A stretch of DNA of 64,000 nt, taken from NCBI GenBank assembly GCA_947164965.1, contig CAMUYR010000014.1, positions 1 to 64,000 on the forward strand, in the 5' to 3' direction. The translations under genes and the position numbers were made by a program. The DNA comes from an uncultured Prevotella sp. (lineage in GTDB: Bacteria > Bacteroidota > Bacteroidia > Bacteroidales > Bacteroidaceae). How positions within the stretch are numbered: the stretch's first letter is position 1; each line of letters starts with the position of its first letter. A model generated the notes under the pieces. The model had not been told where the DNA came from, searched no databases, and saw only the letters and a list, made by a program, of their open reading frames with translations. Of this stretch, positions 16,647 to 17,705 are shown piece by piece.

Positions 16647-16910
16647 ATGGCACATAAAAAAGGTGTAGGTAGTTCTAAGAACGGCCGCGAGAGTGCAGCT
16701 CAGCGACTTGGCATCAAGATTTTCGGCGGTCAGAAAGTTGTTGCTGGTAACATTATCGTTCGTCAGCGTGGTTCTAAGCACAATGCAGGCAACAACGTGG
16801 CTATGGGTAAGGATGACACTCTTTACGCTCTCTGCGATGGAACAGTAGAGTTCCACAAGGGCAAGCGCGACAAGAGTTATGTTTCAGTAATTCCTGAAGC
16901 TCAGGCCTAA
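16647..16910 (+). CDS. rpmA: 50S ribosomal protein L27
   Basis: The 87-residue protein starts [20 protein letters not shown] and contains the L27 signature [21 protein letters not shown]27 sits near the peptidyl-transferase centre. There is no N-terminal cleavable extension as found in Firmicutes. A clear AGGAGG ribosome-binding site precedes it, and the operon ends at a terminator at 16950-16976. Confidence 0.98.
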
Positions 16911-16949
16911 GAGTAAAAAACAAATAACTTACATTCCAAACAAACAAGA

Positions 16950-16976
16950 AAAGGGAGTCCGACGTGGACTCCCTTT
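16950..16976 (+). terminator. Terminator of rplU-rpmA
   Basis: AAGGGAGTCC-GACGT-GGACTCCCTT is a perfect 10-bp stem followed by TCTCT. It lies 40 bp after the rpmA stop. Confidence 0.85.
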
Positions 16977-17002
16977 CTCTGTCATTATCCATTATAAATG
17001 GA

Positions 17003-17076
17003 CAAAAACAAAGATTGATTGTCTCACGACAACCAATCTTAAAATTAACCTTAATAATCTAATACCATGAAAAACA
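17003..17076 (-). ncRNA. Candidate small RNA with own promoter and terminator
   Basis: The minus strand carries a complete promoter (17082-17111), then about 65 nt with no reading frame of note, including CATGGTATTAGATTATTAAGG, and then a terminator hairpin with a T-rich end. The predicted RNA is about 74 nt. Known Bacteroidales small RNAs near ribosomal-protein genes, such as the Bacteroidales-1 motif, have this organisation, but I cannot confirm membership by eye. The 5' end is estimated from promoter spacing. Confidence 0.55.
17011..17040 (-). terminator. Terminator hairpin of the candidate small RNA
   Basis: AAGATTGGTTGTC-GTGA-GACAATCAATCTT pairs over 13 positions with one G-T pair, then TTGTTTTTG on the minus strand. 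It would also stop read-through from the DUF3256 gene. Confidence 0.75.
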
Positions 17077-17081
17077 CATTG

Positions 17082-17111
17082 CAAATATACGACTAATTAT
17101 CGAATTGACAA
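17082..17111 (-). promoter_or_regulatory. Promoter driving the candidate small RNA
   Basis: The minus strand has TTG (17109-17111), a 19-bp spacer and TATATTTG (17082-17089). It points away from any gene on that strand, 28 bp after the DUF3256 stop. Confidence 0.65.
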
Positions 17112-17138
17112 TGCTTTTTTCGAAATAAATGCCACAAT

Positions 17139-17705
17139 TTAATATTTATTAAACCTTTCGCCATTCCATTTAAATGTTTTTGATGGTTTTTCCATCATTT
17201 TCTGCTCATCATTAGCAGGAGCATCCAATCTACATTCTGGAGTGGCAATCAATGTTGGCTCTTCATCACCTAAAGTCAAAAGCAGCATTTCTTGGGGCAG
17301 TTCAACCCTTTCCGAGGCATCAAGCAGTTTCCAATCTGTTGTATAAAAACTAATGGTACTTTCGCGAATATCGGAACCATACGTTTGAACTAAGCAAACT
17401 ATCTGTTTAGCATCATTAACTGGAGTGTTTACATCGAGTAAACGCATGTCCAGCTGAGAGGCTTTTGTCAACTTGATAGAAGCATAGACATCAGTCAGTT
17501 TTGTCAGTTCACTTTTTCCTTCCAATCCGTTGTTCACCTCCGCACGCATACCAGAATCTATAAAATCGATAAAGTCAAGGCGGGCATTTTCTTTCAGATA
17601 TGGAACCAATGTCTCTGGCATCTTTTTCAGCACATCACGCATCTTAACCTGTGCCAGAGAGGCACAAGCTAAGAAACATGACAGAGTTATAAAGAGTATT
17701 CTCAT
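17139..17705 (-). CDS. DUF3256 family protein
   Basis: The 188-residue protein has a signal peptide (MRILFITLSCFLACASLAQ) and the pattern MRDVLKKMPETLVPYLKENA then LDFIDFIDSGMRAEVNN, which I recognise as DUF3256, a Bacteroidales-restricted envelope family of unknown function. The mature part is soluble and probably periplasmic. It starts 13 bp after the paaK stop, so the two may be co-transcribed. No catalytic motif is visible. Confidence 0.8.
   Translation of the reverse strand: MRILFITLSCFLACASLAQVKMRDVLKKMPETLVPYLKENARLDFIDFIDSGMRAEVNNGLEGKSELTKLTDVYASIKLTKASQLDMRLLDVNTPVNDAKQIVCLVQTYGSDIRESTISFYTTDWKLLDASERVELPQEMLLLTLGDEEPTLIATPECRLDAPANDEQKMMEKPSKTFKWNGERFNKY

Follow-up and report, generated by a model that had tools for sequence, protein, structure and literature searches.

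A probable trans-acting small RNA of the FopS family occupies a fixed locus in Prevotella genomes that mostly lack an RRM_1 protein

What is made from a promoter that faces a terminator with no gene in between? The question is raised by a unit on the minus strand of a 64,000-nt stretch of DNA from an uncultured Prevotella sp. (contig CAMUYR010000014.1, positions 1 to 64,000; hereafter the window), which the original prediction, made from the letters alone, proposed as an independent small RNA gene. The promoter agreed with that description: a −33 element TTG (17111–17109) is separated by exactly 19 bp from a −7 box TATATTTG (17089–17082) of the Bacteroidota sigma-ABfr type TAnnTTTG. Downstream on the same strand lies the strong hairpin terminator that had been proposed (17040–17011), one of two sites returned by a terminator scan of 16900–17145 against 0.0 expected in shuffles, and no ORF of at least 60 aa was found over the promoter-terminator unit, matching the stated lack of coding potential. 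The observation of a small RNA gene with promoter and terminator is confirmed.

The family of this RNA was given by an Rfam 15 covariance model search, in which RF04319 (BTncRNA_FopS) matched 17003–17077 of the minus strand at 65.2 bits, over model positions 1–71 of 71 and above the gathering score of 56 bits. Such a search was one of two checks suggested with the original prediction, and the other, conservation of a 20-mer in relatives, also came out in its favour. In the Rfam alignment the 5′ end puts the predicted first base at 17077, rather than near 17076 as first estimated, and the predicted short form is 75 nt long (fold z = −3.5). FopS RNAs, described by Ruttiger et al. in 2025, are ~70-nt sRNAs of Bacteroides, with 14 copies in B. 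thetaiotaomicron and 12–15 in other Bacteroides, and their pairing with susC-like mRNAs at the start region blocks translation, a block relieved by the RRM_1 protein RbpB, which binds FopS (PMC11697453). In B. theta this mechanism has been shown experimentally, with EMSA, in-line probing and in-vitro translation, and FopS and RbpB have been proposed as a single conserved circuit of the Bacteroidaceae (PMC11697453); expression and induction by bile salts are traits of the family (RF04319). The window’s sRNA is a new member of this known family, in a genus for which we found no description of FopS-type sRNAs in the literature searched, which was mostly non-subscription. We consider it likely that 17003–17077 is a trans-acting small RNA gene of the FopS family, whose promoter would give a ~75-nt RNA and a read-through form.

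The sRNA shares with FopS (RF04319) the 5′ seed GUGUUUUUCAURGUAUUAGAU, an unstructured 5′ part, a single terminator hairpin, a promoter of the sigma-ABfr type and the occurrence of more than one copy per genome. It differs in a UUA insertion within the extended seed (R1′) of the Prevotella copy (AGAUUAUUAAGG), in a possible second, longer form in Prevotella and, relative to the FopS of Bacteroides, in its Prevotella-specific locus beside DUF3256. The host genome holds two copies above the cut-off, the second at C2:50868–50935 with 79.9 bits, in contrast to the 12–15 of Bacteroides, together with one weak match at 34 bits and one 24-nt fragment. The weak match (G000:C1:239430–239505, L005) is a divergent FopS-like RNA with a changed seed and a strong hairpin (GUAGUUUUUUCAUGGUAAUCAG...), and comparable weak matches are also present in other genomes of the genus; the fragment is a lone copy of the seed (G000:C4:118181–118204, L006; TTGTTTTTCATGGTATTAGATTCT; E = 0.84) from which the rest of the RNA is absent.

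Conservation was followed in 24 named relatives retrieved with the DUF3256 protein, nearly all of them uncultured Prevotella or Prevotellaceae and many from rumen and gut, and in an alignment of 25 sequences comprising the window, 22 DUF3256-linked loci and two genomes from this genus. The first 33 nt of the sRNA (17045–17077, minus strand; GUGUUUUUCAUGGUAUUAGAUUAUUAAGGUUAA), containing the single-stranded 5′ part and the seed (R1/R1′ of GibS/FopS), are identical in all 25 (33/33 columns), while the flanks are 28–40% identical (33% over the 25 nt that precede the promoter, 28% over +80 to +140, as means of an ungapped comparison that understates identity where lengths differ). A TAnnTTTG box stands within 20 nt of +1 in 25/25 orthologous loci, against a mean of 0.3 and a maximum of 4 of 25 in shuffles, and is preceded by TTG at 17–24 nt in 19 of them. 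The 24-nt core was present with at most one mismatch in 161/200 genomes of the genus, and in 78 of the 86 good-quality ones, its reversed control being found in none of the genomes listed.

The surroundings of the sRNA are conserved on one side. The gene encoding the DUF3256 protein (PF11644; 17139–17705, minus strand; Pfam, 137 bits) is its constant upstream neighbour in the genus: the exact 21-nt 5′ end lies 50–80 nt downstream of a DUF3256 homologue, on the same strand, in 22 of the 24 named loci, across which the DUF3256 proteins are just 34–57% identical to that of the window. Outside the genus, no sRNA was found beside DUF3256 in 27 loci of other genera and families, a single 5-mismatch match on the other strand (L141) looking like chance, so the linkage is genus-specific and an ancestral linkage was rejected. 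That this sRNA copy occupies a fixed locus in Prevotella is a new finding. On the other side, the convergent gene rpmA for ribosomal protein L27 (16647–16910, plus strand; Pfam) adjoins the sRNA only in the window and in L069–L073 among the loci compared; a meaningful link to it was rejected on account of this restriction, and the rpmA neighbourhood is incidental. The Bacteroidales-1 motif, a structured Bacteroidales RNA, has been reported close to genes for ribosomal proteins, and the analogy that the original prediction had drawn with it fell away, since Rfam gave no match to it at E≤1 across 16900–17200 and the constant neighbour is DUF3256.

The 22-nt FopS/GibS seed also occurs exactly in 39 IMG/VR viral contigs (L163–L201; e.g. 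L180:5194 and L185:2160). Fifteen of these copies resemble ordinary FopS genes and carry the host promoter box, and 24 are without the box; many have the seed on differing 3′ parts, and in L180 and L185 it begins within 10 nt past an ORF stop. They may represent seed RNAs carried by phages, sponges, or flanks of the host. An unannotated 10.8-kb phage record obtained from human faeces (MT836368.1:8039–8109, hit H1), which may be a host fragment, contains a copy of the window sRNA with 93% identity.

In the centroid fold of the RNA the first 37 nt are unpaired save for a weak 4-bp helix, and they are followed by a 13-bp hairpin (17011–17040, minus strand) with a GUGA tetraloop that is almost invariant across the alignment. 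Both sides of the hairpin changed at 7 of its 13 pairs, with 28 compensatory cells observed against 6.4 in shuffles that do not preserve relatedness among the sequences, none of the 500 shuffles reaching 28. Because of that property of the shuffles, better support for covariation comes from the slid control, with 96% of the hairpin cells paired against only 26–57% in slid positions, and from the variety of pair types, one pair occurring as GC, GU, AU and UA. An independent small RNA gene, as originally proposed, is supported by these compensatory changes, by the conservation in relatives and by an Rfam match above the cut-off.

Behind the hairpin, the U-rich segment TGTTTTTG supplies a short U-tract that is interrupted (UCUUUGUUUUUG), and the hairpin is the predicted terminator of the short form. 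The other site of the terminator scan is a second terminator-like hairpin at 16949–16977 (AAAGGGAGTCC..GGACTCCCTTTT), which, as it scores on the strand of the sRNA, may end a longer sRNA as well as rpmA; a ~135-nt read-through form probably ends there, as does rpmA from the opposite side. The 135-nt RNA of the window has a fold z of −6.7. In seven relatives (L080–L083, L085–L087) the U-tract behind the first hairpin is lost, with a longest T run of 1–4, and each of the seven carries a second terminator that begins at roughly +101 to +122, implying a form of ~140 nt, folded in L080 into three hairpins; these relatives likely make the long form alone. The window combines the interrupted first U-tract with the second terminator, and its locus probably makes the short form, plus the long form by read-through.

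A long form brings to mind GibS, a 145-nt GlcNAc-induced sRNA (Rfam RF04182; Ryan et al. 2020, PMC7366714) with which the sRNA has the R1 seed in common, and which resembles the read-through form in length and in its terminal hairpin. That the sRNA is a GibS orthologue, with the long form as its real product, is nevertheless unlikely. The GibS model does align end to end, with the window (16943–17077) at 49.8 bits and with long-form relatives at 46–51 bits, and some relatives probably produce the long form alone; these scores, however, are far under the cut-off of 115, and RF04319 outscores GibS in every long-form locus with both matches. Moreover, gibS of B. theta is flanked by a para-aminobenzoate cluster and the glycogen operon and has a PM2 promoter (PMC7366714), unlike this locus between DUF3256 and rpmA with its canonical TAnnTTTG box. 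GibS orthology was rejected, as both score and synteny fail. BTnc231 (RF04180), which has a related 5′ end and a hairpin with a GUGA loop, scored 31.2 bits where 80.4 are required; both matches are weaker than that of FopS, and the 5′ end is common to them. One genus group, g44 (G079, G105, G126, G144, G160, G175, G189, G203), has no FopS at E≤1e-5, and each of its genomes carries one GibS-like match of about 60–77 bits, which suggests that one sRNA may take the place of the other.

The position of the sRNA invites another account, in which it is mainly the terminator or 3′ UTR of the DUF3256 transcript and the RNA a processed 3′-end product or a passive element. The sRNA starts 61 nt past the DUF3256 stop (17139) on the same strand, the linkage is conserved, and FopS-14 of B. 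theta is derived from a 3′ UTR. The unit does lie between rpmA and DUF3256 as originally placed, but the terminator that had been ascribed to each neighbour was not found for DUF3256 between its stop at 17139 and the sRNA promoter, and a hairpin at 17181–17197 is on the opposite strand within the DUF3256 gene; DUF3256 transcripts therefore probably enter the sRNA and share its terminator. We still hold this account to be very improbable, because a dedicated promoter box separates the DUF3256 stop from the RNA in 25/25 loci, 33 invariant unpaired nucleotides go unexplained by a terminator role, and the seven loci without a U-tract keep the paired hairpin. There is likewise little to recommend the conserved 5′ part as a protein-binding or DNA-level element instead of an antisense seed. 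The RbpB CLIP footprint in B. theta spans the 5′ part (PMC11697453) and target prediction for the window copy is weak, but the 5′ part is kept in the genus though most genomes are without RRM_1, compensatory-mutation tests in B. theta showed base pairing by the same region, and covariation in the hairpin favours an RNA over a DNA site.

For the preferred reading, a trans-acting FopS-family sRNA, we propose that the sigma-ABfr type promoter would drive the ~75-nt RNA, whose unstructured 5′ part would be complementary in style to mRNA start regions, with CAU against AUG and the U-run against AAA codons, and that the 3′ hairpin would stop transcription, read-through yielding the ~135-nt form. The reverse complement of the 5′ part resembles a start region (..CUAAUACC AUG AAA AAC), and across 106 start regions of the host genome, placing CAU on AUG gave the best of 17 registers (0.61 pairing vs 0.37–0.52), a small excess that about 2% of CAU-preserving shuffles reach and that is partly due to generic MKK-type starts. 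When duplex energies with the 20 susC-like start regions of the same genome were compared, 11% of shuffled seeds were as good as the window sRNA, and this prediction was set aside as not significant for the window copy; for the second copy, 0/100 shuffles were as good. Two of the best duplexes in the susC-like set lie near −17.5 kcal/mol, one of them (L061) with a doubtful start. An exact target search of the window with at most 3 mismatches returned solely the opposite strand of the sRNA gene itself. Given this weak target prediction, repression by base pairing at the start codon has its main support in the B. theta experiments, and the Prevotella targets are putative. The weak susC duplexes and the small register excess count against our best explanation, as does the absence of RbpB.

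No match to RRM_1 (PF00076) was found in the window’s assembly, which is 93% complete, unlike the B. theta setting of FopS; association with RbpB is not part of the Rfam definition. RRM_1 proteins occurred in 8/200 genomes of the genus and in 5 of the 86 good-quality ones, and in the family 31 of 151 genomes had RRM_1 and 139 of the same 151 had FopS matches. The search is unlikely to have failed across the board, since it detected the few positive Prevotella at 75–86 bits and the Bacteroides control as well. The rarity of RRM_1 in the genus and its absence from the host genome suggest that the sRNA persists without an RbpB-type partner, and our reading is that maintenance of FopS does not need such a protein. 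Expansion of FopS copy number, on the other hand, may go with it: RRM_1-positive genomes had a mean of 5.3 copies vs 2.4 in others, and copy number and RRM_1 were correlated over 30 genera (Spearman 0.56, p = 0.001) in a test that ignores phylogeny. In Prevotella the sRNA would thus act mostly without RRM_1/RbpB, alone or with another RNA-binding protein, and the place of RbpB could be taken by a divergent RRM or by another such protein (KH, cold shock). We regard as evenly balanced the broader proposal that Prevotella FopS act without this partner, with a seed frozen by mRNA targets or by another RNA-binding protein, RbpB being a lineage-specific addition or lost here, and one nearly obligatory FopS locus being kept that yields a short or a long RNA according to the terminator used.

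What makes the locus worth following is its near-invariance together with the absence of the presumed partner. As FopS is nearly universal in the family but RRM_1 is present in far fewer genomes, the two parts of the circuit are separated and the role of the protein becomes testable, Prevotella offering a background that naturally lacks rbpB. The invariant 33-nt 5′ part of this mostly single-copy orthologue also makes it a convenient handle for the targets of Prevotella sRNAs.
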